From Desulfococcaceae bacterium (lineage in GTDB: Bacteria; Desulfobacterota; Desulfobacteria; Desulfobacterales; Desulfosalsimonadaceae), in NCBI GenBank assembly GCA_030145385.1, contig JAQYVU010000036.1:1-41694 (forward strand): a DNA stretch of 41,694 nt, written 5' to 3'. Each line of letters opens with the position of its first letter. Position 1 is the first letter of the stretch. This document shows, one piece after another, positions 3,489-37,090 of this stretch. The translations under genes and the position numbers were made by a program. Under the pieces are notes generated by a model. It made no database searches. It had not been told where the DNA came from and worked only from the letters and a program-made list of their open reading frames with translations.

Positions 3489-3829
3489 GATTGATCCTCC
3501 GGAAAAGTAAAAAAATCAGTTTCCCGGCATTTTACTCTCAACCTATCGATAAATCAAATGATTCAGGCGGGTTTAATTCTAACACAAAACCAGGGGCTGA
3601 AGAGGGAATGCCAAAAAAGAAAAACCATTGTATTTTAAACAATATTTGGATACATAAAACCCAGATACCCCGAACGAACGGATTAAATTGTTTCGCCAAT
3701 ACCGCAGTTAAAAAATCGACTTCCTGAATTTTTGTATTTGGTTCCAATTTCCTTACGATAAAATTTTTTAATTTTTTTATCCGTCAGTTACACTAAACTG
3801 GCTTTTTAAAATGGTTGGAGGGATTTCGT
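3489..3829. other. Divergent intergenic region before inositol-phosphate synthase
   Basis: This stretch separates the minus-strand thioesterase start from the plus-strand ino1-like start and should hold promoters for both. The last 80 bases before ino1 are very AT-rich (a run of AAAATTTTTTAATTTTTTT at about 3760-3780). No well-spaced sigma-70 pair or operator could be assigned with confidence. Confidence 0.5.
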
Positions 3830-4933
3830 ATGCAGCCCATAAAGATCGGAATCATTGGTACCGGCAATTGTGCAAGCTCCCTGCTTCAGGGCATCGAATA
3901 CTATCGATACAAGACAGAAGAAGAATCCATCGGCCTCTTACACTGGAAAATAAACGGATACACACCTTCAGATATCGTTGTTACATCCGCATTTGATATT
4001 GATCGGAGAAAAGTGGGCAAAGATGTTCATGAAGCCATTTTTCAGCCGCCGAACTGTACCCTGAAATTCACTCAAAACATGCCGCATGCAAACGTTACCG
4101 TATCAATGGGCGCAATTTTAGACGGCTGTGCGGATCATATGAAAAACTATGATGATGACTATACGTTTGTACTCAGCAACCAACCAGAGCCTGATAAAAA
4201 AAATGTCATTGAAATCCTGAAAAATTCCGGTACGGAAATATTACTCAATTACCTGCCGGTGGGGTCCGAAAAAGCCACCCGGTTTTACGCCCAGTGCGCT
4301 TTGGAAGCCGGAATCGCATTCATCAACAACATCCCGGTGTTTATTGCAGGAAACCCGAAATGGGCGGAAAAATTTAAAAAAGCAAACATTCCGATCATCG
4401 GCGATGATATCAAATCACAAATGGGAGCCACCATCATCCATCGCTCCTTGGTCAACCTGTTCGCAAAACGGGGCGTGAAAATCGACAACACATATCAGCT
4501 GAACACCGGCGGCAATACGGATTTTTTAAACATGATGGATCAAAACCGGCTGTCTTTAAAAAAACAGTCCAAAACCGAGGCCGTTAAATCGGTCATGAAA
4601 CAGAGGCTGGATGACCGGAAAATCCACATCGGTCCCAGTGATTATGTCCCGTGGCTCAATGACAACAAAGTGGCGTTCATCAGAATGGAAGGCTGCATCT
4701 TCGGCAATGTGCCCATGAACCTGGAACTGAGGCTGTCGGTTGAAGATTCTCCCAACTCTGCCGGGGCGGCCATCGACTGCATCCGCTTGTGTAAAGTGGC
4801 TTTGGACCGGAACCTTGGGGGGGTGCTCGAAGCGCCGTCCGCGTTATACTGCAAACGCCCGCCGGTACAATACACGGATGACATTGCATTTTCGATGATC
4901 GATAATTTTATATCCGATGGCCGGTCCAATTAA
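3830..4933 (+). CDS. ino1: Inositol-3-phosphate synthase (MIPS)
   Basis: This enzyme converts glucose 6-phosphate to 1D-myo-inositol 3-phosphate with tightly bound NAD. The 367-residue chain is the short actinobacterial/archaeal type. Visible motifs are the Rossmann start IGIIGTGNCASSLLQG (residues 6-21), the tetramerisation/catalytic blocks GDDIKSQMGAT (about 190) and LNTGGNTDFLNM (about 220-232), and SPNSAG (about 300). The start is set at ATG 3830 because a GGAGGG site ends eight bases upstream; a TTG at 3815 in the same frame overlaps that site. It overlaps the next gene by 17 bases. In actinobacteria the product feeds phosphatidylinositol or mycothiol synthesis. The nearby MshA- and MshB-like genes favour the thiol-type use here, but inositol lipids or compatible solutes remain possible. 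Confidence 0.93.
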   Translation: MQPIKIGIIGTGNCASSLLQGIEYYRYKTEEESIGLLHWKINGYTPSDIVVTSAFDIDRRKVGKDVHEAIFQPPNCTLKFTQNMPHANVTVSMGAILDGCADHMKNYDDDYTFVLSNQPEPDKKNVIEILKNSGTEILLNYLPVGSEKATRFYAQCALEAGIAFINNIPVFIAGNPKWAEKFKKANIPIIGDDIKSQMGATIIHRSLVNLFAKRGVKIDNTYQLNTGGNTDFLNMMDQNRLSLKKQSKTEAVKSVMKQRLDDRKIHIGPSDYVPWLNDNKVAFIRMEGCIFGNVPMNLELRLSVEDSPNSAGAAIDCIRLCKVALDRNLGGVLEAPSALYCKRPPVQYTDDIAFSMIDNFISDGRSN

Positions 4934-5561
4934 CAGCACCCCTACCCGCATATCCCTGATCCGTCATGGTCATGTAAAAAATCCGGATGACATTTTTTAT
5001 GGGCGCCTGCCGGGATTCAAACTTGACAGCAACGGACAACAGGAAGCTGCCCAAGCTGCCGAGGCACTTAAAAGCTGGAAGTTTGACAGTGTCTATAGCA
5101 GCCCGATGCTCCGCGCCCGACAGACAGCAAACGAAATCCTTAAATTCCATCCTCAACTCAAACTAAAAATATCTTCTTTGATTACAGAAGTTTATTCGTC
5201 TTTCCAGGGGCAGCCGAGCAAAATGCTCGCGCCCTATCTCTGGGACGTTTATGCCGGTAAAGACCCGAAATACGAACAGCCGGAAGATGTGACCCAACGG
5301 ACCCAAAAATTTATCCAGCGCATCCGAAAGTGTCATTATGGACAACACGCAGCCGCCGTCACGCATGGAGATGTAATTTTATTTGCCATTTTCCGGGCAA
5401 AAAAAATCCCCGCGACTGCTGCAAACAAATTAAATTTAAATAAATTGGGTATCCTTAAAGATTATCCGGCCACCGGCTCCATCACCACGCTGGCATATCA
5501 AACCTCTGATATCGATGAAATCCCGAAAGTGTCTTATTTCTCTTTTACAAAGGAATTTTAA
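4917..5561 (+). CDS. Histidine phosphatase family protein, candidate inositol-sugar phosphatase
   Basis: This 214-residue member of the phosphoglycerate-mutase/histidine phosphatase superfamily has its phospho-accepting motif LIRHGH at residues 14-19, SSPMLRARQTA for phosphate binding (about 61-71), and the second catalytic histidine in VTHGD (about 144). All core residues are present. Its ATG lies inside the last codons of ino1 (17-base overlap), implying translational coupling. Mycothiol synthesis needs dephosphorylation of GlcNAc-inositol 3-phosphate by an activity called MshA2 whose gene is not settled. A phosphatase welded to ino1 and facing mshA/mshB-like genes is a natural candidate. 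It could equally release free inositol from inositol 3-phosphate. The family call is firm; the substrate is inference. Confidence 0.85.
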   Translation: MAGPINSTPTRISLIRHGHVKNPDDIFYGRLPGFKLDSNGQQEAAQAAEALKSWKFDSVYSSPMLRARQTANEILKFHPQLKLKISSLITEVYSSFQGQPSKMLAPYLWDVYAGKDPKYEQPEDVTQRTQKFIQRIRKCHYGQHAAAVTHGDVILFAIFRAKKIPATAANKLNLNKLGILKDYPATGSITTLAYQTSDIDEIPKVSYFSFTKEF

Positions 5562-6240
5562 CTCTGTGAAACCCCTCCGCGTATGTAAAATCTGTTCCTG
5601 ACGCCATTTCTTTACATTTATTTTTCACCCAAATTTCGGCATGTTGAGTCCCCATCGATGCCATCTGACTTTTATGACAAAACAACGCCGCCAGTTTAGT
5701 CTCCATGACGTTGCTGATATCTTCCCGCCGGTTGATCTCTTCTGATCCCCAGAACCAGATCTCTTTTACCTTGTGCGGCAGAATGCCTTCATCGATTAAA
5801 TCCGGGTATGCCAGCCGATCCCGGGCATACGGATAGACAGCATCCAGAGCCACCTGGCCGGCAATTCGATGATCCCGGTGCCAGATATATCTCCGGTAAG
5901 GATCCGAAGTAACGATGACCTTTGGCCGGTAAATCCGGATCATGCGGACAATATGTTTCCGGAAAACCGGTGTGTCTTCCAGTTCCTGGTCCGGATATCT
6001 TAAAAACTCGACTTTGCTGACCCCTAAAAGCGCTGCAGCCTCTGATTGCTCTTCCTCACGGATTTCCGCCAGCTGCCGCGGCTCCATATCCGGGTCACTG
6101 CTGCCTTTGTCGCCGCTGGTACAAACAACATAAACCACCTGCTTTCCGGCGGCCGTCCATTGGACAACCGATCCGGCAACACCGAATTCCGCATCATCCG
6201 GATGCGCGGATATAATCAAATAATCAGCCTTGTTTTCCAA
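5545..6240 (-). CDS. PIG-L/LmbE-family N-acetylglucosaminyl deacetylase, MshB-like
   Basis: This 231-residue zinc-dependent deacetylase carries the AHPDD motif at residues 12-16 (His13 and Asp16 as zinc ligand and base) and the distal metal-binding HRDH motif at 121-124. The family removes the acetyl group from GlcNAc-type conjugates: MshB acts on GlcNAc-inositol, BshB on GlcNAc-malate. The only usable start is TTG at 6240, with AAGGA eight bases upstream, because the catalytic motif begins only 12 residues later and no earlier ATG exists. Its end overlaps the phosphatase gene tail-to-tail by 17 bases. It is the last gene of the minus-strand operon and follows the MshA-like glycosyltransferase by 29 bases. 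That context supports deacetylation of a GlcNAc-inositol intermediate. Confidence 0.85.
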   Translation of the reverse strand: MENKADYLIISAHPDDAEFGVAGSVVQWTAAGKQVVYVVCTSGDKGSSDPDMEPRQLAEIREEEQSEAAALLGVSKVEFLRYPDQELEDTPVFRKHIVRMIRIYRPKVIVTSDPYRRYIWHRDHRIAGQVALDAVYPYARDRLAYPDLIDEGILPHKVKEIWFWGSEEINRREDISNVMETKLAALFCHKSQMASMGTQHAEIWVKNKCKEMASGTDFTYAEGFHRVKIPL

Positions 6241-6269: not shown

Positions 6270-7553
6270 TTAATGGGCCAAAAGTTTCTGATATTCTTTA
6301 ATCATCAATTTTGCCGGGTTCGCCCATGCATAACCCTGAACAGATTCCCGAATCTGTTTTGCGTCAAATAGGCCCTTTTGCTGCTTGCCGGCGACTTTTA
6401 TAATCGCCTTCACCATTTCTCTGTCATTCTCTTCTGCTATAACACATCCATTTTTGTGATTGATAATCTCCGGCATCGCCCCTACCGGCGTGCTGACAAC
6501 CGGTGTGCCGCATGCCAGGGATTCAAGGCCTGCCAGACAAAAGCTTTCATGATATGACGGCACCACCAACATATCTGCGGCACTATAATACGCTGGCAAA
6601 AGCTCCTGATCCTTGCGTCCGATCAGATTTACCGCCTTTTGAATTTTTAAGTTTCTTATAACGGATATAAGTTTTTCATTGTCATCATCCCCGCCGACGA
6701 CCAGCAGCCGAAAACGGGTTTGATCCCGATTTTGATTCCAATGGTGAGCCCGTTTTTGAGAATTGACAGCAGACATAATTTTCAATAACCGCGCCAGCCC
6801 TTTCACCGGAACATTTCTGCCTATATACAGCAGCAATTGCGCATCATCATTAAAGCCGATTTCCCGGCGGGCAGCAGCCTTATCCACAGGCTGAAAAAGC
6901 GCCAGGTTGACTCCGGCCGGAACAACGCCGATCTTTTCCGCTGCCACGTGATACATCGATATCAGATCATGTGTTTCATTCTGCGTGGATGCAACGATCC
7001 GGTCACAGTCGGCAGCCAGTTCTTTTTCCTGTTCAATGCGAGAAGCCGGTTCCGACTCCTGGGAACAAGCCCGATTTTTGACTGCGCCCATGGTATGAAA
7101 AGTCGTAATATGCGGCATCCCATGCACTTGCTTTATTTGTCTGCCCAGCACGCCGGAAAGCCAGTAGTGGCTATGAACAAGATCGTACGTTAAACCTTCT
7201 TTTTCAAATGTTTCATTGAATGCGGCAAAAACGGCCGGCAAATAATCAAACAGATTCTTTTTGGTAATTTTTTGACCGGCTTGAATATCCAGGTGTTTCA
7301 GCCGGACATTCAGCCGAATCAGCCGGACATTTTTAAACATAGGGATAATGGAAGAAACTGGCTGATTCTGACACAGCGTGAACACATCGACAAAAACTCC
7401 GGAATTGCCAAGTTCTCTAGCCAGTTCCCGGATATAAACACTCATGCCACCGTTATCACGGGTCCCCAAATCACCGACAGGACTTGAGTGAATGCTGAGC
7501 ATTGCAATTCTGCCGATACCTATTGAAGCAGATGCGGTGAAATTGGAAATCAT
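6270..7553 (-). CDS. mshA: GT4 glycosyltransferase of the MshA type
   Basis: This 427-residue GT-B retaining glycosyltransferase has motifs closely matching D-inositol-3-phosphate glycosyltransferase (MshA). They are the nucleotide-sugar loop GTRDNGGMSVY (residues 30-40), HSHYWLSG (128-134), FHTMGAVKN (152-160), ASTQNE (188-193), VVPAGVN (210-216), GRNVPVKG (about 248), and the EX7E motif ESFCLAGLE (about 345). MshA transfers GlcNAc from UDP-GlcNAc to 1D-myo-inositol 3-phosphate; sucrose-phosphate synthase-like enzymes are the nearest alternative. The ATG overlaps the stop of the GNAT gene by four bases (ATGA), indicating coupling. A synthase for its acceptor (ino1) and a deacetylase for its product lie alongside, which strengthens the MshA reading. 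An in-frame second Met at residue 18 is a possible alternative start. Confidence 0.82.
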   Translation of the reverse strand: MISNFTASASIGIGRIAMLSIHSSPVGDLGTRDNGGMSVYIRELARELGNSGVFVDVFTLCQNQPVSSIIPMFKNVRLIRLNVRLKHLDIQAGQKITKKNLFDYLPAVFAAFNETFEKEGLTYDLVHSHYWLSGVLGRQIKQVHGMPHITTFHTMGAVKNRACSQESEPASRIEQEKELAADCDRIVASTQNETHDLISMYHVAAEKIGVVPAGVNLALFQPVDKAAARREIGFNDDAQLLLYIGRNVPVKGLARLLKIMSAVNSQKRAHHWNQNRDQTRFRLLVVGGDDDNEKLISVIRNLKIQKAVNLIGRKDQELLPAYYSAADMLVVPSYHESFCLAGLESLACGTPVVSTPVGAMPEIINHKNGCVIAEENDREMVKAIIKVAGKQQKGLFDAKQIRESVQGYAWANPAKLMIKEYQKLLAH

Positions 7554-8563
7554 TCAGGACCTAAGTCGATGGTCAGCCGATAAAGTGGCACAGGCCTGCC
7601 GCCCAGTCGCTCTTTATATGCTTCATCGCCTTTTAAAAAATTATAGCCGGCTATTTTTTTTTCAATACTGTGTTTAATGCTGAAGATCTTGCCCAGAGAC
7701 CCCGCACTCAGATCACGGAATTGCGGGTGATATCCGTTATTGTATAAAAAAACAGTATCAGTGTATTCAAAACAAAACGTGGCGGCCGCAGCCTTACCAT
7801 CAATGTATAAAAATCCGAGCTGCAGCATATCCCGTTCTGCCATTGTTATTGCCAGAGACCGGAAAAAAGATTTCATCGGGTCAGTTAAAAATTCGGCCTT
7901 GTCCTTTCGGCTTGCCTCAAATAATGAAAGAAATTCCTCAAAAGCATTATCAATTGCATCCTTTTCTTTGTTATTGATCACATAAAAGTCAACCTGTCCG
8001 GCCTCTTCAAGCCGCCTGACTTTCCGGCGGACCTCGTGGCGCTGCTTTCCATTCAGGCCATGAAGGTAGCCGTCCCAGGTCTTGGGGAGTTCCAGTTCAT
8101 AAAACCTGTCCACCGGCTCACAGCTAAAATGATACCCCAGTTTTTCGGCGGTTTGTGATAAACCGGCCAGCGTTTTTGAATCCGGACGCAGAGCCCCGAG
8201 TTCCAGACGGCCAACACCCATATTTTTCAAATGTTCCAGCAGCTGTGAATAAAAATTATCAGGGCATTTGTCGGCAACAATCATGTCCTGGTAATCGCAG
8301 ACCGATTCACTCCCAAGAAATTTTGCTGTCTGCCCTTCCAGCATGAGCGGGGCAACACCCAGCAAAGACGTTTCTGACCGGACAGCTAAAATCAGTTGTG
8401 ATTTATCGGCACCAAATACCTGCCACCAGCTTTTCAGCCAAAAGGGAAGCATAAACAGGCAGTTCCAGTTCAGACCGTGGGCAATTTCACCAAAGATATT
8501 TTCGAATTCTTCCATGGAAATTGCAGATATATTTATTCGCTTTATTCTCTGGCTGCGGCACAT
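7550..8563 (-). CDS. GNAT-fold acyl/aminoacyl transferase, BioF2/FemAB-like
   Basis: This 337-residue protein has the layout of the BioF2-like/FemAB-related GNAT family. A first half ends at a strand (RLELGALRP). The hallmark basic helix GKQRHEVRRKVRRLEEAG follows at about residues 170-187. The second GNAT half has FLYIDGKAAAATFCFEY and the terminal KGDEAYKERLGG block, where K-G-x-E-xYK is typical. Members transfer acyl groups from CoA or ACP, or amino acids from aminoacyl-tRNA (FemX type). Sandwiched between an MshA-like gene (4-base overlap) and an oxidoreductase gene (10-base gap), it is a candidate for either the N-acetylation step (MshD role) or, more speculatively, cysteine attachment. 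Sequence alone cannot decide. Its ATG lacks a strong ribosome-binding site, consistent with coupled translation. Confidence 0.72.
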   Translation of the reverse strand: MCRSQRIKRINISAISMEEFENIFGEIAHGLNWNCLFMLPFWLKSWWQVFGADKSQLILAVRSETSLLGVAPLMLEGQTAKFLGSESVCDYQDMIVADKCPDNFYSQLLEHLKNMGVGRLELGALRPDSKTLAGLSQTAEKLGYHFSCEPVDRFYELELPKTWDGYLHGLNGKQRHEVRRKVRRLEEAGQVDFYVINNKEKDAIDNAFEEFLSLFEASRKDKAEFLTDPMKSFFRSLAITMAERDMLQLGFLYIDGKAAAATFCFEYTDTVFLYNNGYHPQFRDLSAGSLGKIFSIKHSIEKKIAGYNFLKGDEAYKERLGGRPVPLYRLTIDLGPE

Positions 8564-8573
8564 ATGATTTTAT

Positions 8574-9590
8574 TTAACCCAAATCAATTATTTTATCGAA
8601 TCGCGCGGATTTTGCCAGCGCATCCAGCACGATTAAATTATTGATGCTGTCCTCAAGCGTTATTCGGGGGGATTCGCCGGTAAGCAGCACATCGGCAAAA
8701 TGCTCGACCATCAGCTGATATTCATCCGCCCCCGGAATGATCATTTTTTGTCCGTTTTCTTCATCCCGTTCGCGGATAAAAATATAAGCATCCGCCTCCC
8801 AGGGGATGTAGGCATTGTGCGGCAGCTCAATCGCACCATCTGCGCCGGCAACCGTATAAGTCTGCTGTAATGCTGATATAAAACTGGATTCAACAATGGC
8901 AAGGCCGTTATCCGGAAACGTAAGGATACCGGCGGTATGAACATCAACGCCCCCCGCATGCCAGTGCGCGGATGCCTGAACTTTTATCGGTTCACAACCC
9001 ATCAGCCACCTGGCGATGCTGACGCCGTAGCACCCGACATCCAGCAAGGCCCCCCCGCCTTTTTCCCTGCTGAATCGAAAATTATCCGCGCGTTTGAGAC
9101 TGTCTTCACCCATATTAGAACAGAAAGCCGCCCGGATCAGGCGAGGATTGCCGATGCGGCCGTTTTTGATCATGTCAAGCACAGCCAGACTGCGGGGATG
9201 GAACCGGTACATCATGGCTTCCATAAGATAACAGCCGGCAGCTAATGCTGCATCAGCCATCTCCCGGGCCTGGGCTTCATTTTTTGCCAGCGGTTTTTCA
9301 CATAATACATGTTTCCCGGCCTTTAATGCCTTGATCGTCCACGGAAGATGCAGGTGATTCGGCAAAGGAATATAAACAGCATCCACTTCAGGATCACTTA
9401 AAACCGTTTCATAATGGCCATAAACATTTGAAATATTGTATTTTTCAGCGACCACACCGGCTTGCTGCCGGTTGCCTGAGGCTATTGCGTGAATATTGCC
9501 GTTTCTTGATTTAACAATGGCCGGAATAACGCATTTAACGGCAATCAAGGCATTGCTGCCCAGAATTCCCCATTTGATTTTCCGGTTCAT
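8574..9590 (-). CDS. Gfo/Idh/MocA-family NAD(P)-dependent oxidoreductase
   Basis: This 338-residue two-domain dehydrogenase has a Rossmann start IKWGILGSNALIA (residues 4-16), the signature LCEKPLAKN (about 96-104) whose Lys is the catalytic residue, YRFHPR, and the substrate-domain block GGGALLDVGCYGVSIARWL. It resembles the trans-dihydrobenzenediol/xylose dehydrogenase branch of the family. Relatives oxidise or reduce hydroxyls of sugars and inositols. It overlaps the larger oxidoreductase gene by four bases (ATGA) and precedes the GNAT gene by ten. In an inositol/glucosamine pathway such an enzyme could epimerise or oxidise the cyclitol or sugar ring, which would make the final product different from actinobacterial mycothiol. 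That role is inference; the family call is firm. Confidence 0.87.
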   Translation of the reverse strand: MNRKIKWGILGSNALIAVKCVIPAIVKSRNGNIHAIASGNRQQAGVVAEKYNISNVYGHYETVLSDPEVDAVYIPLPNHLHLPWTIKALKAGKHVLCEKPLAKNEAQAREMADAALAAGCYLMEAMMYRFHPRSLAVLDMIKNGRIGNPRLIRAAFCSNMGEDSLKRADNFRFSREKGGGALLDVGCYGVSIARWLMGCEPIKVQASAHWHAGGVDVHTAGILTFPDNGLAIVESSFISALQQTYTVAGADGAIELPHNAYIPWEADAYIFIRERDEENGQKMIIPGADEYQLMVEHFADVLLTGESPRITLEDSINNLIVLDALAKSARFDKIIDLG

Positions 9591-11236
9591 TGTATTTGCT
9601 CCGGTTTCCCGCCATTTGCCGACGAAATTGCTGCGGCGGCCAGAATGGAAACGACCTTAACCGAATCTTCCAGCGGGGCGGCCAGTGGTTCACCCAGCAG
9701 CAGGTGGTCGGCGATATTTTTATGAAAGGGATATTTTTCGCGTGACGGCAGGGCCATTTTCTGTTCCACCAGGTTTCCGTCCGGATGCCGGCGGGTCAAT
9801 CGCAGATCCGGCGGCATTTCCGTTGCCGGAATATCGTGCTGTTCATAGTAAAGCAGGGGATCAATTTCAAACGATGTGATATCCCGCCAGTATCCGACGA
9901 TACCGCCTTTGGTTCCCAGCAGATACCATTTGGGCTTGCGGATGGCCGCAATATCCGAATGAATGAAAAACGCTTCCGCCTTGTTGTAAAACCCCACCCG
10001 AATCTGTTCGTGGTCCGCATTGGTCACGTCATGCCAGACCCGTTTCTGTGAGGCCCCGGAAACCCAGACCACTTTATCGGGAATCAGTGCAACCATCCAG
10101 TCAAGGTAATGGGCACCCCAATCATAGGCAGTCCCCCCGGAAACAGGCGCATGCGAATGCCAGTGCCCGCAGGGGTGGTAAAAACCGCCCACAAAAGTTT
10201 CCATGTAAAAAAGGTCACCGATCAGGTTTTCGGAAACAGCCTGCTGGATGGCCAGAAAATCCTGGTCAAACCGCCGGTTCTGGTGACAGCTCAGATGGAC
10301 GCCCATCTGTTCTGCCATCTCCTGCATGCGGTCCGTTTCCTGGCGATTAATTGCCAGCGGCTTTTCACAAATCACGTGCTTGCCGGCCGCCATCAGTTGA
10401 ATGCTTAATGATGCATGGGTATTGGGCGGGGTGGCGATAATCACCAGATCGATGCTGCCGTCTTTGGCCAGCACATCTGACGATTCATATAAAACCGCAT
10501 CCGGGAATTTGCTTGCAGCCGTTTGCAGTTGATCTGGATTTAAATCACATATGGCGTTTAACGTCAGACCGGGGGTTGTTTCAATCCCTTTACCATGAAG
10601 TTCACCCACTGACGGGGCGTACCCCAGAATACCGACGGACAGATTGTCGGCAGCAGCCGGGACAGCCGACAACTGACGGATCAGCCGGTAAACCGTTTTC
10701 CGGACAAAAAAGCTGTTAAAATCCTGAATTGTGGTGCAAACCGCATGACCGGCATCAACCGCCCGATAGCTCATCAACGGCATCTGCTGAAAATGCCAGT
10801 CTGCGACCAGCAAGGTCTTCACATCCTCTCTTTTGATTGAAAGCGCCTGGTAAATTCCGCGGATATAAGACATATCTGCCAGGCGCTCAGCAATACAACC
10901 AAAACGATCCTGAAACAGCACTCTTAACTCCGCCTCCGGCCCGACAGGCCCTGGAGCAACGCCGAAAATCGAATCAACCGGATTTTCCGACAAGCCAATC
11001 AGGGAAAACCACAATCCGCCGGAACGCACAAAGTTTTCCAAATAAGAAGGTACTGGCAAAAAGCGGGATGCGGATTCGGTCAGAATTGCATGAAATTTTC
11101 CCAGATCTTCAGGAAGCGATTTGCTTGCTGCCACCGACACATGGGGGATCTGATACAGAAATTCGATAAACTGTTTTAACGCATTATTTGTATCTGATAC
11201 AACATACAAAATGTTTAAACCGGGATGCTGAAGCAT
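9587..11236 (-). CDS. Two-domain Gfo/Idh/MocA oxidoreductase with N-terminal GATase/ThuA-like domain
   Basis: This protein has 549 residues from the ATG at 11236, which has GGGGG eight bases upstream. The frame stays open further to 11305, but that extension is encoded by the end of a dispersed repeat and is probably not translated. Residues 1-195 form an alpha/beta domain (LNILYVVSDTNNALKQF, NFVRSGGLWFSLIGL) resembling ThuA or class I GATase-like folds. Residues 200-549 are a Gfo/Idh/MocA dehydrogenase with VGILGYAPSVGELHGKG, EKPLA at 291-295, HQNRRFDQDF, and GGTAYDWGAHYLDWMV. Fusion to such an N-domain is unusual, since most family members have about 350 residues. It likely acts with the adjacent smaller dehydrogenase (4-base overlap) on one sugar or cyclitol intermediate, perhaps as a sequential oxidation/reduction pair. 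Confidence 0.8.
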   Translation of the reverse strand: MLQHPGLNILYVVSDTNNALKQFIEFLYQIPHVSVAASKSLPEDLGKFHAILTESASRFLPVPSYLENFVRSGGLWFSLIGLSENPVDSIFGVAPGPVGPEAELRVLFQDRFGCIAERLADMSYIRGIYQALSIKREDVKTLLVADWHFQQMPLMSYRAVDAGHAVCTTIQDFNSFFVRKTVYRLIRQLSAVPAAADNLSVGILGYAPSVGELHGKGIETTPGLTLNAICDLNPDQLQTAASKFPDAVLYESSDVLAKDGSIDLVIIATPPNTHASLSIQLMAAGKHVICEKPLAINRQETDRMQEMAEQMGVHLSCHQNRRFDQDFLAIQQAVSENLIGDLFYMETFVGGFYHPCGHWHSHAPVSGGTAYDWGAHYLDWMVALIPDKVVWVSGASQKRVWHDVTNADHEQIRVGFYNKAEAFFIHSDIAAIRKPKWYLLGTKGGIVGYWRDITSFEIDPLLYYEQHDIPATEMPPDLRLTRRHPDGNLVEQKMALPSREKYPFHKNIADHLLLGEPLAAPLEDSVKVVSILAAAAISSANGGKPEQIQ

Positions 11237-11262
11237 GGTATATGCCCCCTTATCAAACAAAA

Positions 11263-11404
11263 TTGATGGCTTCGTAAAAACCCCAAATTCTGTGTTACGC
11301 TGCATTCTTCGTCACTGCGGAGTAGGCCAGCTACGCCTCATTCTGAAGAATTTGCGCGCCTTGCCAGTTTTTATACAAATGGTGAAGCTTTTTTCATTGC
11401 CATC
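11263..11404. repeat. Dispersed MITE-like repeat, copy 1
   Basis: This 142-base element begins TTGATGGCTTCGTAAAAA and ends CTTTTTTCATTGCCATC, giving imperfect terminal inverted repeats. Its core (CTTCGTCACTGCGGAGTAGG and flanks) is nearly identical to a second copy at 37972-38098. It lies inside the operon between the S51-CysRS fusion gene and the two-domain oxidoreductase. The homologous core covers about 100 bases; the right ends diverge and copy 1 is about 15 bases longer. It carries no gene. Such sequences are probably mobilised in trans or act as RNA hairpins. Confidence 0.85.
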
Positions 11405-11434: not shown

Positions 11435-12685
11435 TTAGATCATTCGCCATTGCTGTCCGTCTTTTGTATCTTCAACAATGATATTAGCCTTATACAGAAT
11501 ATCCCTTATTTTATCCGCATCTGCCCATCTTTTTTCTTTTCTGTAATTTGCCCGCAAATCAAGCAGCCGGGACACCAATGGATCCATCACAGACTGAGAA
11601 CTGTGGGGCCGGGCAGCCATTTCAACGCCTAAAAGCACGATCAGGTCACGAAGCACTTCCCTCGCCAGGGTAATATTATCTTCACTCTCCAGATTGGTCC
11701 GGGCTTTCCAGAGCATGCCGTCTAAATCGAGTAAGGAACTGACCATCTGCTTGGCATCACGCACATCCAGCCCTTCCCGAAAGCCGGCTTCCAGCTGATG
11801 AATCTTTTGCCAAAAGCTGTCTTCTTTAATTTCGGTACGTTTTTCATCATCGAATCGACTCGCGGAATGAGTTATCCCCGACGCCCGAATAAGTCCATCC
11901 TGTAACAATTGCAGGAAAAAGGTTTCCCCCTTGCCAAAAGACGCTTCCCGGCATCCCTGGCGAATAATGATACGACCCAGTCCCCGGACTTCGGCTGTCC
12001 GGGTTGCCAGATCCATAATGCAGGCAGTATGCTCATCAAGACCGACAAATATGGTATCTTCGGGCAGCAGTGATTCAAGTTTTTCAAACCGCGGGCCTCC
12101 CATATAGCAAAACCGCGTATCATGGGTCCCGCCCTCGGCATTGTTCCAGTGGGGGATGACCACTATGTTCAGTCCGAAATGAGACAAGATATCCAGCCCG
12201 TCAACCCAGTGAAGAGGCTGGCCCACCTTGTAAATTTCATAGACCGGCAGCGTATGTTGTCCGACCGTCAAGGCCGCAGCGCTGGCAGCGGTTAAACAGG
12301 CGCCGGATTCAACACGTTTTATAATAATATCAGGAATATCTGTTTGCTGAAGGTGTGATACCGTATAGGTGGGGCTGCCGGGGCCGATTAAAAAATAGTC
12401 CGCGTTTTTCAACTGACGCGATGCGGTTTCGATCTCAAATTTGGTTGCCGTGTCTGCGGATTTAAACGATACAATGGAGAGTTCATGCTGAACGTGCTGG
12501 CGAAAATATTGTCCGGCTTTTCCTGAGATCTCATCCACATTGAGCTGAAATCCGGCCGGTGTGTCTAAAAATACCGCTTGCGGTGAACTGCCCTGGCGGA
12601 CAAGCATCTGCTTATGGACATCCACCATGGTTGATGTCAGTTCTCCCGAACCCATCAGAACGATCTGGCCTCTTTGTGAGGTCAT
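11435..12685 (-). CDS. Peptidase-S51-like domain fused to CysRS C-terminal (DALR and anticodon-binding) domain
   Basis: This 416-residue fusion has an N-terminal class I GATase/peptidase-S51-like domain (residues 5-265) with GPGSPTYT (101-108), a nucleophile-elbow-like AASAAAL with Ser135, and VIPHW with His179. Residues 297-358 (GFREGLDVRDAKQMVSSLL and on to LIVLLGV) align by eye with the DALR helical domain of cysteinyl-tRNA synthetase. Residues 368-414 (LVSRLLDLRANYRKEKRWAD, ADKIRDIL, IVEDTKDGQQWR) match the CysRS extreme C-terminus. The CysRS catalytic core (HIGH and KMSKS motifs, zinc site) is absent. MshC, the mycothiol cysteine ligase, is the reverse: the catalytic core without this anticodon-binding end. 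The protein may bind tRNA-Cys or a cysteinylated intermediate; the reaction is unknown. AGGA lies 11 bases before the ATG. Confidence 0.8.
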   Translation of the reverse strand: MTSQRGQIVLMGSGELTSTMVDVHKQMLVRQGSSPQAVFLDTPAGFQLNVDEISGKAGQYFRQHVQHELSIVSFKSADTATKFEIETASRQLKNADYFLIGPGSPTYTVSHLQQTDIPDIIIKRVESGACLTAASAAALTVGQHTLPVYEIYKVGQPLHWVDGLDILSHFGLNIVVIPHWNNAEGGTHDTRFCYMGGPRFEKLESLLPEDTIFVGLDEHTACIMDLATRTAEVRGLGRIIIRQGCREASFGKGETFFLQLLQDGLIRASGITHSASRFDDEKRTEIKEDSFWQKIHQLEAGFREGLDVRDAKQMVSSLLDLDGMLWKARTNLESEDNITLAREVLRDLIVLLGVEMAARPHSSQSVMDPLVSRLLDLRANYRKEKRWADADKIRDILYKANIIVEDTKDGQQWRMI

Positions 12686-12877: not shown

Positions 12878-13567
12878 TTAAATTTCAAAACCGGAATTTT
12901 CAGCAGAATATTTGTCAATCTTATTGCGCTGATACACCGTGACAAAACCTTTTCCGTGGACCTTCCATTGATCGCCTTCCTGTTTCCGGATCATGCCGGT
13001 CTGCTCATCAATACCGACAACAACCACACCCGGAAACTTATTTTGAATCATTTCAAGCCATTGCTTACCCAGATCCTCATGATGGGGAATGACAATCACA
13101 TGGGGAAGAACTCCTAAGCCAGGCTGTATTTTTCCATTTTCAGGGTTCAGAAACCATTCGCACATGACCATGGCGCCGGCACTGCTGCCGGCCAGCGTAG
13201 CGCCCCTGCGATACGCATCAAGAATTGCCGACCAGCATAGACTGCCTCGCAAGGTTTTTTCCAGATAAGCGGGAAATCCGCCGAGAAGATAAATTAAATC
13301 CGCATTTGTCAAAAATTCTGCCAGAAATTTATCATTCGCTGAAACAGTATCGATGATCGGCAGACTGCGGACATTTTTCACACCCAGAAACTGAAACCAG
13401 CGAACGCCATTCTTTCCGGCACGCTCATGATTGCTGTCCGGGGCGGCAGCAGTGGGTAAAATGCAGACCGCCATATCATTCTTACCGGTCAGGGTAATCG
13501 CCTGCCGGTCCGCTTCTGCCATGCGCCCCTGAAATTCAGCGCCTCCTTCCAGTAAAATACCTCCCAT
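12878..13567 (-). CDS. Peptidase S51 / cyanophycinase-like protein
   Basis: This 229-residue single-domain protein of the dipeptidase E/cyanophycinase superfamily starts MGGILLEGGAEFQ. It has the LLGGFPAYL motif (94-102), a canonical nucleophile elbow AGSSAGAM with Ser129 (126-133), and the VIPHHEDLG block with His162/163. Relatives hydrolyse alpha- or beta-aspartyl and other isopeptide bonds. It is the first gene of the minus-strand operon, 192 bases upstream of the S51-CysRS fusion, so two S51-type proteins lie side by side, the second more divergent at its elbow. A role in hydrolysing or remodelling an amide bond of the proposed thiol (comparable in purpose to the mycothiol S-conjugate amidase) is speculation. 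Length is usual for the family, and the start has AAAGGT upstream. Confidence 0.8.
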   Translation of the reverse strand: MGGILLEGGAEFQGRMAEADRQAITLTGKNDMAVCILPTAAAPDSNHERAGKNGVRWFQFLGVKNVRSLPIIDTVSANDKFLAEFLTNADLIYLLGGFPAYLEKTLRGSLCWSAILDAYRRGATLAGSSAGAMVMCEWFLNPENGKIQPGLGVLPHVIVIPHHEDLGKQWLEMIQNKFPGVVVVGIDEQTGMIRKQEGDQWKVHGKGFVTVYQRNKIDKYSAENSGFEI

Positions 13568-13888
13568 CTTGCATAACCTTTTGTTCTTTGAATAAAAAAC
13601 ACTCGGGAATTGGTTTTTTTTCGTTAAATATACACTATCATAAATCTATCCGGTATGATTTAAAATTTTTTAACCATCTAAAAAAAATCAGTAATTTAAA
13701 GTACCGCTTCGGTTTTTCCGGGTAAGAAGACGCCGATGAAAAATAAAGAAAATATTTTTAAAAAAGGTGGATTTTTAAAAACAGAATGATATAATTCAAA
13801 TTAGCCGGATATAATTATAACTAACTGTTTTAAAATATTTTTATATCTTTTATCGCAAGAAGTGCTTCGTGACAAATGCGGGGTATTC
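13568..13888. other. Divergent AT-rich intergenic region between S51 gene and redoxin fusion
   Basis: This is a strongly AT-rich spacer of about 320 bases between divergent genes. TATAAT hexamers occur at 13790-13795 and 13810-13815 on the plus strand, but neither has a recognisable -35 at the right spacing. It should carry the promoters of both the biosynthetic operon and the reductase. No operator palindrome or coding signal was recognised. Confidence 0.5.
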
Positions 13889-15130
13889 ATGAAACACAAC
13901 GATATTATTGTTTATGGTGCTTACTGGTGCCCGGACTGCCGCCAAAGCAAACTTTTTCTGGGGGAACATCAGATTCCCTATCAATGGGTGGATATCGAAG
14001 AAAATCCGGAAGCTGAACAGCTGGTCATCGAAAAAAACAACGGCAAGCGAATCATTCCCACCATTATTTTTTCAGACGGCACGGTCCTGGTTGAGCCGAC
14101 CAACGCAGAGCTGGCAGAAAAGCTCAATTTAAAAACCACGGCCAGACGTTCACATTACGACCTGATTATTATCGGCGGCGGACCGGCAGGACTGACCGCC
14201 GCCATCTACACAGCCAGAGAAGCCATTGACACCCTTGTCATCGAACAGGCGGCATTCGGCGGCCAGGCGGCCGGAACGGAGAAACTGGACAATATGCCGG
14301 GTTTTCCGGAAGGGATATCCGGTATCGAGTTTTCCGGCCGGCTCCGGCAGCAGGCCGAACGGTTCGGTGTGGAACTCCTTCAGACGCAATCCGTTGAAAA
14401 ACTCTTTTCAAAAAACAATTACCGGTGCATCACCACCAGCGACGGGCATGTTTACAGTGCCAAAGCCATTCTTATCGCCACAGGCAGCCGGTACAAAAAA
14501 TTAAATGTACCCGGAGAGAAAGACTTTCTCGGCGCAGGCGTCCATTATTGCGCCACCTGTGACGGACCTTTTTACAAGGGCAAACATGTGGCCGTGGTGG
14601 GCGGGGGCAACAGTGCAACGGAAGAAAGCCTTTTGCTGACCAAATTTGCCGAAAGCGTCACCATACTGGTCAGGGAAAAAGAATTTAACGCCACCCGGCT
14701 GATTCAGGAAAGCGTGCTGAACCACCCGAAAATAAACGTGCGATGGAATACGGAAGTCAAGGAATTCACAGGAAAAAAATCCAAGCTGTCCAAATTAAAA
14801 ATAATAAACAATCAGTCGCAGAAAGAAGAAGAACTGCCAATTGACGGCGCGTTTATTTTTATCGGCCTTACCCCGAATACAAATTTTCTAAAGAATAGCA
14901 AAATACACTTAAATAGCTGGGGATTTATTGTGACCGGTCATGAATTATCCCATATCAGTGACAGGCTTGAAGGATTCGCCAACCGGGCCCCATATCTTTT
15001 AGAAACCAGTGTGCCCGGGGTGTTTGCAGCAGGAGACGTCAGGGACAACAGCACCAAACAGGTGGTCAGCGCGGCCGGCGAAGGAGGAGCCTCGGCCCTG
15101 CTTGTCCGGGAATATCTAAAACACGTGTGA
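13889..15130 (+). CDS. Mycoredoxin/glutaredoxin-thioredoxin reductase fusion
   Basis: The chain has 413 residues from ATG 13889 (GGGG just upstream; a GTG at 13862 is an in-frame but poorer start). Residues 1-82 are a glutaredoxin-fold domain with active site WCPDC (Cys14, Cys17), the cis-proline block IIPTIIFSDGT (55-65) and VDIEEN, closest by eye to actinobacterial mycoredoxin-1. Residues 88-413 are a thioredoxin-reductase-like flavoprotein: FAD motif IIIGGGPAGLTAA (93-105), redox motif CATC (Cys221, Cys224), NADPH motif VVGGGNSATEE (236-246), and FAD motif GVFAAGDVRD. Electrons would pass NADPH-FAD-CATC-WCPDC to a mixed disulfide or thiol disulfide. Placed divergently next to an MshA/MshB-type locus, it is a natural recycling enzyme for that thiol. 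General disulfide reduction is the alternative. Confidence 0.88.
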   Translation: MKHNDIIVYGAYWCPDCRQSKLFLGEHQIPYQWVDIEENPEAEQLVIEKNNGKRIIPTIIFSDGTVLVEPTNAELAEKLNLKTTARRSHYDLIIIGGGPAGLTAAIYTAREAIDTLVIEQAAFGGQAAGTEKLDNMPGFPEGISGIEFSGRLRQQAERFGVELLQTQSVEKLFSKNNYRCITTSDGHVYSAKAILIATGSRYKKLNVPGEKDFLGAGVHYCATCDGPFYKGKHVAVVGGGNSATEESLLLTKFAESVTILVREKEFNATRLIQESVLNHPKINVRWNTEVKEFTGKKSKLSKLKIINNQSQKEEELPIDGAFIFIGLTPNTNFLKNSKIHLNSWGFIVTGHELSHISDRLEGFANRAPYLLETSVPGVFAAGDVRDNSTKQVVSAAGEGGASALLVREYLKHV

Positions 15131-33825: not shown

Positions 33826-35943
33826 TTATTGATACGCTTTTTCCATGTCCTTTATTTTTATAATAATTTCACCTACGGTTTCCTTGAGTTCCCCGCCCAT
33901 TTTTAAATATTCGTTGGGGTATTCATCTTTCAGAAAACTCATTAACGCATAGTAAACCGGCTTAAAACGATCTTTGAATTTATGGGGATTTTCATTAAAT
34001 ATCTTTAACGCTAAATGGTACTGTTTTTTGGCTATCAAAAGCATTAAAAACAAGCTGACATCCTGCGCATATCCTTCAAAAAATTCTTTATCATTTAAAA
34101 AGTTTTCAGCAACCTCAACACCATCTTTAAATTGATTATCCCATAATGAAATCATGGCATAAGTGTGAGCATTGAAAACATTATTTTCTTTTTGATACGC
34201 TTTTTTTGACCATTTAATTGCCTGCTTCTTGTTCTTTTTTTCTATAAAATACATCTTTGCCAGACTATTCATGGCGGGAGTGTGGTCTCTTTCTGCAGCC
34301 TGAAGATAATATTTTTTCGCTTTATTTTTATCTTTGATGTATTTTTGGTACAATACTCCAAGCATTATAATTGCATTGGCATCGCCTCTTTGTGCTGCCT
34401 GCATAAAATAATATTCTGATTTTTTAATATCCTTTATCACTATCATATAATGAATACCCAAAACATTCAGGATATCAGTTGTTTTATCCTTTATTTTTTC
34501 AAGGCTTTTTATCTCCTTTGCCGAATCTAATATCTGAGTATCTTTTAATTCTTTATCTATGATTTGCTTTTCGTATTTTGATAAATGTTCACATAGCTCC
34601 GATCCACAGTTTTCAAGATACGCTCTTGTATTTTCTAATAGTTGACTTTGTGTTTCCTGTTTTATCGGAGTCCGAACCAGCGCTTCGGTCATCATAAACG
34701 CATGGCGATCAACGATTTTCCCCTGACTTAAAGCATGAAGATGCCGATGGGCACGTACTTCCAGTTCTTTGTCATCGCACCAGATCTGCAAAAATTCGAC
34801 AATAAAACGGACCCTTCGTTCATCCCACTTTCGCCCCAAACGCATCAGGTACCAGATATTAAAAAACCGTTCATGTATCCGGTATAAATAGTTTTTGGTG
34901 TTTGTTTTTTCCTTGTCAATAATATGGAATTTTTCCAGCTGCCCCAACTGGGCGGACACAGCCTTGCTTTGTATTCTTGTTTTTTTTGCAATTTCTTTTG
35001 TGGTGACCGCATCCCAGTTTAACGCGATAAAATTGACAATTTCCTGCTGCTGGGCAGACAGCTTATCCATCCGGTGCTTGTACAAAGGCGTTACACTGTC
35101 GAGTATTTTTTCCAGATCCTTAAACGCATTGCCGTTTTCATCGTCTACAAAAATTTCAAAAAGAATAATAATGGTCCGGATAACCCCGCCGGTCAGTCTT
35201 CGCAACGCTTCAATCCGGCCGGGCTGGTTTTTGACAATATGATTGACCCGGTCTTTTTTGTAATGCCGGCCCAGCCCCAGCAATAATTTTTTGGTTGCTG
35301 CGGTGGTTAACCCCTTGAGATACGGCATCTTGAAAAAATGGTAAAAGGGCTTTCCGTAATCATGGTGAAACTCAAGGCTCACGGACGAGGCACCGATCAC
35401 CCGGATTTCCGCAGACTCCATAAATACTTCCCTGAGCCGGTGATGTTCTTTTTTTGAAAATTTTTCAAACATTTCATCAATATTATCGATAAACAGAATC
35501 AACTTTTTTTTGTTCGCAATCAGCGTTTTTTCCAGGAGTTCAAAACACTGGAACTCATAATCATCATCATAATCCAGTACCTGCATTTTTTCATAAAGAC
35601 CATTTATTTCATTGCCTTCATCCAGGTATTCTGCAATCGACTCCCACAATTTAAACAACCGGGTAATGCTGTACTGTTCTTCATTAAAAATAACCGGAAT
35701 CATTCGTTTTGAAAGTTTCGGGTCATTGTTGATTTCATAGGCTATGCGCAGGAGCATCGTGGTTTTGCCCTGCCCCCGATTTCCCTGGATAATATAATGC
35801 TGTTCCGGGTGTTGCATTTTTGATCGTTTGATATCGTCAAAAATATCCCTAAACAGCTTTGCCCTGACAACAAAATTCTCTATCAGTTCCTGCTTTGTCT
35901 GCAACGCCGGATTGTATATTTTGGGTAAATCAACTGGCGACAT
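33826..35943 (-). CDS. P-loop ATPase with winged helix and TPR/Sel1-like repeats
   Basis: This 705-residue protein has Walker A GNRGQGKTTM (residues 54-63), Walker B KKLILFIDNIDEMF (146-159), and sensor-like RVIGASS. A winged-helix region lies around 295-370 (TTKEIAKKTRIQSKAVSAQL). A helical region follows, then Sel1/TPR-like repeats at about 505-585 (AAQRGDANAIIMLGVLY, AAERDHTPAMNSLAKMY). The architecture of STAND/AAA-type NTPase plus sensor repeats is that of signalling or conflict-system switches. It starts 14 bases before the end of the preceding ATPase gene, with GGAGG five bases upstream, so the two are translationally coupled. Composition is visibly more AT-rich than the metabolic genes nearby, suggesting acquisition. 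Function is unknown. Confidence 0.8.
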   Translation of the reverse strand: MSPVDLPKIYNPALQTKQELIENFVVRAKLFRDIFDDIKRSKMQHPEQHYIIQGNRGQGKTTMLLRIAYEINNDPKLSKRMIPVIFNEEQYSITRLFKLWESIAEYLDEGNEINGLYEKMQVLDYDDDYEFQCFELLEKTLIANKKKLILFIDNIDEMFEKFSKKEHHRLREVFMESAEIRVIGASSVSLEFHHDYGKPFYHFFKMPYLKGLTTAATKKLLLGLGRHYKKDRVNHIVKNQPGRIEALRRLTGGVIRTIIILFEIFVDDENGNAFKDLEKILDSVTPLYKHRMDKLSAQQQEIVNFIALNWDAVTTKEIAKKTRIQSKAVSAQLGQLEKFHIIDKEKTNTKNYLYRIHERFFNIWYLMRLGRKWDERRVRFIVEFLQIWCDDKELEVRAHRHLHALSQGKIVDRHAFMMTEALVRTPIKQETQSQLLENTRAYLENCGSELCEHLSKYEKQIIDKELKDTQILDSAKEIKSLEKIKDKTTDILNVLGIHYMIVIKDIKKSEYYFMQAAQRGDANAIIMLGVLYQKYIKDKNKAKKYYLQAAERDHTPAMNSLAKMYFIEKKNKKQAIKWSKKAYQKENNVFNAHTYAMISLWDNQFKDGVEVAENFLNDKEFFEGYAQDVSLFLMLLIAKKQYHLALKIFNENPHKFKDRFKPVYYALMSFLKDEYPNEYLKMGGELKETVGEIIIKIKDMEKAYQ

Positions 35944-37090
35944 TTTGCCTCCACCACATTCTTAATATTGGCGAGTTAAAGCGATACATTTTCTTATCAT
36001 CACTATTATTGATATAGCCGTCATAGACCAGAGCCCCGACAAGATCCTTGAACGTGTCTTCAACCTTGTATTTGACTGCTATATTATAAATTTCAGCCGA
36101 CTGGATTGTTCCATTTTCCGAAATAATATTTAAAAGCTGTTTGGAAAAATTATACTCATCACCCTTTAATGTTGTCCGCAACCTTGAGTGCCAGTGCTCA
36201 AAATGATTTCTCTGGGCCAGCATATCTTCAAATGTCCGGTCAATATAGGATTCAGTTATATTTTCCAGATCTTCGTCTCGATACAGATCTTTTAAGCCTT
36301 CAATGGCCAGTTGAATATAAAAAGGAATCAGCCATTCGATTTTTTCAAGAATATACTCAATTAACGGGTCGGATAAATCAAACGGGACATTTTGTAAAAG
36401 TCGTATGACCAGATCTTTTGCTTCAGCTGGTTTGAGCGGCGGGATAACCAGGCGGGACAAATCATTGATGGTTTTTGGGGCATTCATTTTCCCGACAATA
36501 TTTTCAAGACCAATGGAGCCCGTATAAATAAATTGAACATGACTGCTTACTTCATCATCCTGTCTTAACTCCCGGTTGCTGTGCAGAAAATGTTTTCCCG
36601 CTTGTTCCCCTTCATCGGCATTAATATTTTCTAAAGTCTGGGGGAACTCGTCTAACATGATGATTGTTTTCCCGTATTCCGTATCAATGGATTTTAAGAT
36701 CTTTTTAAGTACCTCGAAATAATCAAGGTCATCTTTAACACCGAATTCAACACCATCTTTCCCGATTTTTTTAATCGACGGCATGTGTTTCTGAAGAGAC
36801 GTTAGAATCTTTTGTGAAGACTTGATCGCAGGCGTTTTTAAAACCTTGTTGACCACTCTCCTGAAAAACTCATTTTCATTATTAATCGATTCCGTATCCA
36901 GAAACAGAAAATCAAAATTCTTTTTCGGGTTATCTTTTAAGTAATACATTACAGACGTTTTTCCAACGCGCCGGGGGGCGGCAATCAGGATATGATTACC
37001 CGACTCGATCAAGTCCCAGGCCTTGCTGATGATATTTTTTCTAAAATAAAAGTTTTCTCCCCTGGCAGGGGCTCCGGTGTTGATGTCCAT
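35930..37090 (-). CDS. P-loop ATPase of the archaeal-type ATPase family
   Basis: This 386-residue protein has Walker A APRRVGKTSV (residues 38-47) and Walker B TIIMLDEFPQ (142-151). A charged region follows, then a winged-helix-like C-terminus ending YRFNSPILRMWWRQNVAS, a typical end for stand-alone archaeal-type AAA ATPases (PF01637-like). It opens the two-gene operon and overlaps the larger ATPase gene by 14 bases. AGGAG lies seven bases before the ATG. A strong promoter with twin operators precedes it. Its partner has a sensor-repeat tail, so this protein is a plausible regulatory or effector half of the pair; whether it binds DNA or a membrane is not known. Confidence 0.8.
   Translation of the reverse strand: MDINTGAPARGENFYFRKNIISKAWDLIESGNHILIAAPRRVGKTSVMYYLKDNPKKNFDFLFLDTESINNENEFFRRVVNKVLKTPAIKSSQKILTSLQKHMPSIKKIGKDGVEFGVKDDLDYFEVLKKILKSIDTEYGKTIIMLDEFPQTLENINADEGEQAGKHFLHSNRELRQDDEVSSHVQFIYTGSIGLENIVGKMNAPKTINDLSRLVIPPLKPAEAKDLVIRLLQNVPFDLSDPLIEYILEKIEWLIPFYIQLAIEGLKDLYRDEDLENITESYIDRTFEDMLAQRNHFEHWHSRLRTTLKGDEYNFSKQLLNIISENGTIQSAEIYNIAVKYKVEDTFKDLVGALVYDGYINNSDDKKMYRFNSPILRMWWRQNVAS

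Follow-up and report, generated by a model that had tools for sequence, protein, structure and literature searches.

Among the closest described systems is mycothiol synthesis, in which, according to the abstract of PMC9736012, MshC joins free cysteine to GlcN-inositol using ATP. The protein studied here, named S51C, resembles MshC in that a piece of cysteinyl-tRNA synthetase (CysRS) is used in a mycothiol-type pathway. MshC retains the CysRS catalytic core and is without the anticodon end, as is seen in the MshC-type frames. S51C shows the opposite arrangement, and it occurs both in genomes that have MshC and in genomes that do not. The original prediction's description of S51C as an inverse of MshC in architecture is supported.

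The other half of S51C belongs with peptidase family S51 (cyanophycinase, peptidase E; 6nqc, 3en0), with which it shares the fold and the aligned Ser135, His179 and Glu218. It differs from this family by the CysRS tail, by the motifs PVYExYK and PHWNNAEGG and by an invariant Cys193 that is absent in the aligned stretch of 6nqc.

A double-GNAT protein encoded nearby (GNAT below) shares its fold with FemX/FemA and Sbb17/Sba18/Orf11-type transferases (Z about 21), of which Orf11 acylates an amino sugar. A passage of PMC12945691 describes Orf11 as a Gly-tRNA-dependent FemX-like enzyme that loads glycine onto the amino-sugar intermediate streptothrisamine. The GNAT of the window differs in matching no solved chain by sequence, and its presumed substrates are cysteine and GlcN-inositol. 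Bacterial SepRS with a fused ThrRS-like editing domain (PMC8762117) likewise combines a hydrolytic module, perhaps acting on misacylated tRNA-Cys, with a part that recognises tRNA-Cys; its domains are unrelated to those of S51C, and SepRS retains its synthetase. Among the titles and abstract openings listed from the open PMC literature, none was found on a fusion of S51 with a CysRS tail, on a tRNA-dependent thiol ligase or on a pair of FemX-like transferase and tRNA-Cys hydrolase in a mycothiol-type operon.

Domain architecture of S51C

In S51C, an S51 (cyanophycinase/PepE-fold) hydrolase domain is followed by two CysRS domains, DALR and the C-terminal anticodon-binding domain (Table 1). Its whole length is conserved, with relatives at 35-78% identity. 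Pfam CysS_C (PF23493) matched residues 371-414 with E 2.5e-9 and 37.5 bits, above the cut-off of 23, and the NCBIfam cysS model aligned only by its positions 336-464, to residues 288-414 (E 5.9e-8). A profile of 71 relatives matched solved CysRS chains: residues 293-414 aligned with 8qhp at E 1.2e-11, and residues 297-415 with the E. coli enzyme at E 2.9e-8.

The AlphaFold model of S51C had mean pLDDT 83.4 and pTM 0.66 and showed helices between residues 281 and 399, followed by strands at 402-407 and 410-415. Stretches of low confidence (pLDDT <50) were 45-47, 184-192 (next to Cys193) and 271-287. Using VIA-align, residues 292-416 were superposed on residues 332-461 of tRNA-Cys-bound E. coli CysRS (1u0b) with Z 8.5 over 117 residues at 28% identity and an rmsd of 16 A, which means that the pieces of the tail are hinged differently. 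Pfam DALR_2 (PF09190) did not match S51C, and assignment of the predicted DALR domain rests on the cysS model, the PDB profile and the modelled fold.

For the hydrolase domain, Pfam S51 gave E 3.5e-4 and 20.8 bits, under its gathering cut-off of 23.9. The best PDB match of this domain was 6nqc (Foldseek E 8.1e-15), and VIA-align gave Z 26.9 over 234 residues with rmsd 2.5 to the same structure. No family of the CysRS catalytic core (HIGH/KMSKS) was found in S51C by Pfam up to E 1, where CysS_C and S51 were the sole matches. An S51-like hydrolase fused to the anticodon-binding half of CysRS, with a CysRS-like region at residues 297-416 and the catalytic core absent, had been predicted from the letters; CysS_C, cysS, the PDB profile, the S51 fold and the superposition on 1u0b all bear this out.

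Chance similarity of the tail to CysRS was ruled out by the cysS match, the PDB profile and the conserved contact residues described below. An assembly chimera was ruled out as well, because the fusion recurs in many genomes.

Another CysRS fusion was seen in the window's genome: a 760-aa protein (G000:C153:9123-10271; locus L116, 610-2892) carries a domain resembling cysteine synthase of the PLP type, judged by eye, together with CysRS, and is present besides the ordinary CysRS. CysRS-matching frames of 725-850 aa occurred in many related genomes, including G056 and G058, two genomes without a full-length S51C.

Conserved residues and variants of the family

Full-length S51C was present in 5 of 60 genomes searched, the window's genome counted, and the other four proteins were 52-78% identical. 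A pattern scan of a species-genome collection gave at least 138 relatives, and 80 loci were kept. By record title these were mostly Desulfobacterota, with Nitrospirae, Firmicutes, Actinobacteria and one Sphaerobacter. The alignment had 71 rows: the window protein, 67 of the kept loci and three further sequences. The other 13 loci comprised fragments, frames that were split, a duplicate, L113 with its missing tail and a few that looked full-length.

Ser135, His179 and Glu218 were invariant in all 71 rows, and so were His219 and Cys193. The first three align with the corresponding residues of 6nqc, and we take these shared positions to be the S51 catalytic triad. Cys193 is in the active-site stretch of S51C and is shared by the Sphaerobacter and G133 proteins.

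In the E. coli CysRS-tRNA-Cys complex, as a passage of PMC12684709 describes it, Arg423, Arg427, Trp432 and Asp436 contact G34. By alignment they correspond to R378, R382, W387 and D391 of S51C, respectively. R378 and D391 were found in 71 of 71 rows, position 382 was Arg in 69 rows and Lys in two, and position 387 was aromatic throughout (57 Trp, 11 Phe, 3 Tyr). The kept G34-contact residues make binding of tRNA-Cys by S51C plausible. They may be inherited rather than used for tRNA.

Some members lack part or all of the tail. Sphaerobacter L113 had the S51 part alone, with no CysRS tail; G133 had S51 and the last CysRS domain without DALR, and G305 was likewise, judged by its match. Distant S51C members had no single conserved partner gene nearby. 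In one clade of Desulfobacterota the neighbour was PNP_UDP_1, as seen by a scan of one member and by clustering for the rest; there were elsewhere luciferase-like proteins, Gfo1-Gfo2 or a second S51.

Operon and mycothiol-like gene set

The window is the whole analysed stretch of 41,694 nucleotides from a Desulfococcaceae bacterium. S51C lies there in a minus-strand run in the order S51, S51C, Gfo1, Gfo2, GNAT, MshA-like and PIG-L (Table 1). The genes are closely packed: two neighbouring pairs overlap by 4 bases, and the other gaps measure 10 to 192 bases. Beyond the run, the histidine phosphatase and Ino1-family genes follow, and the fusion of glutaredoxin and thioredoxin reductase (TrxR) precedes. 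The MshA, mycoredoxin and TrxR models were the best or near-best NCBIfam matches, all below their own cut-offs. PIG-L is the family of MshB and Mca.

Table 1. Genes of the S51C operon and its flanks, with positions in the window.
Feature	Position	Strand	Remarks
S51C, fusion of S51 with CysRS tail	11435..12685	-	416 aa, ATG start; ORF verified
Parts of S51C			S51 domain ~residues 1-265 (S135/H179/E218); linker 271-287; CysRS DALR/anticodon-binding domains ~288-415 (R378, R382, W387, D391)
Second, single-domain S51 protein (cyanophycinase-like)	12878..13567	-	Pfam/NCBIfam
Double-GNAT, FemX/FemA-like transferase, candidate Cys-tRNA-dependent ligase	7550..8563	-	Pfam Acetyltransf_6; 4-base overlap with MshA-like gene
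MshA-like GT4 glycosyltransferase	6270..7553	-	Best NCBIfam match MshA, 268.8 bits, below cut-off 462.5
PIG-L family deacetylase	5545..6240	-	Family match
Histidine phosphatase family protein	4917..5561	+	Putative GlcNAc-inositol phosphate dephosphorylation
Myo-inositol-1-phosphate synthase (Ino1) family protein	3815..4933	+	
Gfo2, Gfo/Idh/MocA oxidoreductase	8574..9590	-	
Gfo1, Gfo/Idh/MocA oxidoreductase	9587..11305	-	572 aa, additional N-terminal ~220 residues
Glutaredoxin domain and thioredoxin-reductase-like fusion	13862..15130	+	Mycoredoxin model 70.2 bits (cut-off 89.5), TrxR 329 bits (cut-off 343.45)

No MshC over cut-off was found in the window's genome (G000), the best match (299.6 bits) being a full-length CysRS of 504 aa, and MshD had no match in this genome at E<=0.001. 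There were no tRNA genes within the window. Judged by its gene content, the S51C operon seems to encode a variant mycothiol-like pathway in which neither MshC nor MshD reaches its cut-off. The expectation of a thiol pathway without MshC was matched by this context, with the MshA-like, PIG-L and Ino1-family genes in the operon and the glutaredoxin-TrxR fusion nearby.

At the 80 kept loci, genes on the same piece of DNA included GNAT in 41, MshA-like in 37, PIG-L in 28 and a second S51 in 22. Of the 46 loci whose downstream DNA extends for 6.5 kb or more, 28 have GNAT and 28 have MshA, and MshA came directly after GNAT in 33 of 35. All four of S51C, GNAT, MshA and PIG-L were present at locus L085 of the cultured Desulfacinum infernum DSM 9756.

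The second S51 gene stands in tandem with S51C in those 22 loci, including L104, L106 and L107, and its product is perhaps a heterodimer partner. Gfo1-Gfo2 accompany S51C also in two actinobacteria, L108 and L111, with an alpha/beta hydrolase between. This hydrolase was seen in L108, and neither an MshA-like gene nor GNAT was found near S51C at these two loci. Gfo1 and Gfo2 may modify or degrade the sugar part of the thiol. Elsewhere in the window, adjoining genes at 33826-37090 encode a STAND/NACHT-like NTPase with Sel1 repeats and an AAA-ATPase-like protein; their Pfam matches were below cut-off except Sel1.

Distribution of GNAT and MshC

Among 297 genomes of the phylum, S51C was found in 33 (E<=1e-40) and GNAT in 59 (E<=1e-30), with both in 30 (P 1.8e-21, kinship ignored). 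A second set held 52 S51C genomes, 47 reached via kept loci and 5 from the 60-genome search, and thus does not cover all 80 loci; the two sets overlap, some genomes being in both under different handles. In the 52 genomes (with G103 as the tail-less form), GNAT of at least 100 bits was present in 40, an MshC-type gene in nine, both in none and neither in three, G088, G062 and G090 (Fisher P 6e-8, kinship ignored). The nine consist of seven over cut-off, G103 (388.7 bits) and G071 (379.5 bits), and the MshC-type threshold of >370 bits, combined with a tree, was picked after the scores were seen.

Six of the seven genomes having S51C and MshC over cut-off were titled actinobacteria, and the one with L104 only "uncultured bacterium". 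The tRNA contact residues were intact in S51C of MshC organisms (L104-L108, L111, L112). In G103 the tail-less S51 relative coexists with an MshC-type enzyme. Of 30 genomes tested, eight had an MshD over cut-off: the seven MshC genomes and G104, which also has a partial GNAT (121.8 bits).

In G132, a further genome with S51C and no GNAT, an MshC-type gene (376.9 bits) lies within 0.5 kb upstream of the MshA-like gene, which is the usual place of GNAT. G071 had the operon without GNAT and an MshC-type gene on a separate contig. Before that gene (G071:C124, L146) lies one for a small protein resembling superoxide reductase, as judged by eye. In a small tree (24 rows, some CysRS rows being flagged for long branches), the proteins of G071, G132 and G103 grouped with six over-cut-off MshC apart from CysRS with 100/100 support. 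The mutual exclusion of GNAT and MshC-type genes, the placement in G132 and the tree together make GNAT and MshC look interchangeable. The substitute for MshC is probably the nearby double-GNAT, not S51C.

GNAT also occurs without S51C. Of the 59 GNAT genomes, 29 had no S51C at E<=1e-40. We re-searched 18 of these, with GNAT of at least 185 bits, at E 0.001, and S51C was found in none (0/18); an MshC-type match >320 bits was also found in none of the 18. Eleven of the 18 were inspected, and in nine of them MshA adjoined GNAT.

GNAT was not always beside S51C. It was elsewhere in the genome together with MshA in the Firmicutes G091 and G095 (both inspected) and, away from S51C, in the second-clade Desulfobacterota G085, G087 and G092 (all three inspected). 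A third Firmicutes genome, G083, had an end piece of GNAT only, and in a fourth, G088, neither GNAT nor an MshC-type gene was found. G062 and G090 had no MshC-type gene and only remnants of GNAT, scoring 57.6 bits and containing stops in the former and scoring 31.5 bits in the latter. In G213 and G301, S51C was present and neither ligase was found, and other members of their genera have GNAT. The operon of G399 (L046) is without GNAT, and the MshC-type gene predicted there was not found, contrary to expectation. No GNAT or MshA was on the 21 kb piece of L041.

Fold of the double-GNAT

The GNAT model had a pLDDT of 94.2. Ranks 1-23 of VIA-align (Z 21.0-16.4) were FemX/FemA, Sbb17/Sba18 and MprF/A-PGS/L-PGS-type proteins and one uncharacterised protein (2hqy). 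Z was 21.0 over 294 residues with 6snr and 20.8 over 280 residues with 1lrz. MshD (2c27) was at rank 25 with Z 14.8, the other MshD structure, 1ozp, was also below FemX, and 2wpw had Z 14.1. As MshD is present in the VIA list below FemX, the argument is one of ranking, not of absence.

The E-value order of Foldseek was less clear than VIA. The first match was 2wpw (E 1.2e-12), an acetyl-CoA-type tandem GNAT of the clavulanic acid pathway, followed closely by Sba18 (3.0e-12), with FemA at rank 6 and FemX at rank 9; by TM-score 2wpw (0.50) was lower than Sba18 (0.61). By sequence, the GNAT profile had no match among solved chains in PDB even at E 10, and hhalign with one FemAB protein was weak (probability 6.6). 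Lys317 of GNAT was invariant in 28 of 28 sequences and, by eye only, is placed like the lysine of FemX. The modelled double-GNAT fold is nearest to FemX/FemA as measured by VIA-align. This fold, the interchangeability with MshC and the precedent of Orf11 suggest that GNAT most likely takes cysteine from Cys-tRNA-Cys.

Proposed pathway and alternatives

We propose a variant mycothiol-type pathway in which the FemX-like GNAT is the ligase and S51C is an accessory tRNA-Cys hydrolase, with a probability of about 0.4 for the whole. The architecture of S51C, the conservation of its triad and G34 contacts, the operon linkage and, across the genomes covered, the mutual exclusion of GNAT and MshC-type genes come from computation; from these we infer all enzymatic steps, the binding of tRNA-Cys and the reactions of GNAT and S51. 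Ino1 would produce inositol phosphate, the MshA-like enzyme would add GlcNAc to it, and the histidine phosphatase and PIG-L would then give GlcN-inositol. The FemX-like double-GNAT, in place of MshC, would put cysteine onto GlcN-inositol, most likely from Cys-tRNA-Cys. S51C would grip tRNA-Cys at the anticodon via its CysRS-derived C-terminus, and the triad Ser135-His179-Glu218 would hydrolyse the aminoacyl bond. In this way S51C would discharge tRNA-Cys that carries a wrong amino acid or is charged in excess, or else cleave the matching aminoacyl-GlcN-inositol, and so serve for clearance or proof-reading.

Because S51C accompanies both kinds of ligase and was not found in the 18 re-searched GNAT genomes, its role looks accessory. 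GNAT seems to work without it, so S51C is probably neither the ligase nor essential to the ligase. The conserved triad and the kept tRNA-Cys contacts would best fit hydrolysis of aminoacyl-tRNA-Cys, or of the aminoacyl-sugar product, by S51C. Some facts stand against the proposal: S51C coexists with MshC (the seven genomes over cut-off, G071 and G132) in organisms that need no ligase of the tRNA-dependent kind, S51 occurs without the CysRS tail (L113) or without DALR (G133, G305), neither ligase was found in G088, G213 and G301, G062 and G090 have only GNAT remnants, G104 combines a partial GNAT with an MshD over cut-off, and there is the G399 operon.

S51C as a direct replacement of MshC was considered and rejected, for it coexists with MshC and is absent from many GNAT genomes, and in G132 it is the place of GNAT that MshC occupies. 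The original prediction was that S51C may recruit tRNA-Cys or a cysteinyl intermediate in a thiol pathway lacking MshC; binding of tRNA-Cys is plausible from the kept G34-contact residues, but the implied filling of the MshC gap was not supported. That functional guess was probably near the right pathway and chose the wrong gene for the MshC role.

S51 enzymes cleave amides, and S51C could be an amidase that acts on the thiol or on S-conjugates of it, an analogue of Mca in salvage or detoxification, with the CysRS tail reused for a non-tRNA role. Its presence with both ligase types and with Gfo1-Gfo2 also in the actinobacteria L108 and L111, the S51 part standing alone in Sphaerobacter and the invariant Cys193 within the active-site stretch would all suit this function, but the kept G34-contact residues (69-71 of 71) would be left unexplained, and we regard it as rather doubtful. 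Another possibility is that S51C itself is the cysteine ligase, its S51 serine forming an acyl-enzyme from Cys-tRNA-Cys and passing the cysteine to GlcN-inositol, and that GNAT is only an MshD-like acetyltransferase. Conservation of the triad and tRNA-Cys contacts agrees with this, as does the window's genome, which has no MshC over cut-off and, having no MshD match, also wants an acetyltransferase. It is nevertheless very improbable, given that S51C coexists with MshC, that 18 of 18 re-searched GNAT genomes are without S51C and that in G132 MshC replaces GNAT, not S51C. A delivery or specificity factor, which would catch Cys-tRNA-Cys by the anticodon and hand it to GNAT with the S51 fold as scaffold, is in line with GNAT in 30 of 33 S51C genomes of the phylum and on the same DNA piece in 41 of 80 loci. 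An invariant triad (71/71) is unlikely for a scaffold, however, and S51C is retained alongside MshC, which in the words of a passage of PMC2922099 "apparently functions independently of tRNA", and this role is unlikely.

The double-GNAT might also be an ordinary acetyltransferase of the thiol, while an unrecognised enzyme ligates cysteine. Its Pfam name is Acetyltransf_6, an acetyl-CoA-type tandem GNAT was first by Foldseek E-value, and MshD is likewise a double-GNAT. But of the proteins at VIA ranks 1-23, with Z between 16.4 and 21.0, all except an uncharacterised one were aminoacyl-tRNA transferases, whereas MshD scored 14.8 and 2wpw 14.1, and GNAT and MshC-type genes were mutually exclusive. 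We hold this explanation to be somewhat unlikely and keep the FemX-like GNAT as ligase, with S51C as accessory hydrolase, as our working proposal.

Biological meaning

If the proposal is true, tRNA-dependent ligation would couple a redox buffer to the translation machinery. Mycothiol-type chemistry would then extend to Desulfobacterota, Nitrospirae and Firmicutes, and the presence of MshA-like genes without MshC in these genomes would be explained. S51C gives a concrete handle on this chemistry, as a hydrolase with its own putative tRNA-Cys recognition module. We tentatively suggest that several phyla may take the cysteine of their thiol from Cys-tRNA-Cys via a FemX-like transferase, and that many may guard against the drain of tRNA-Cys with a dedicated tRNA-Cys-binding serine hydrolase made of S51 and the CysRS end.
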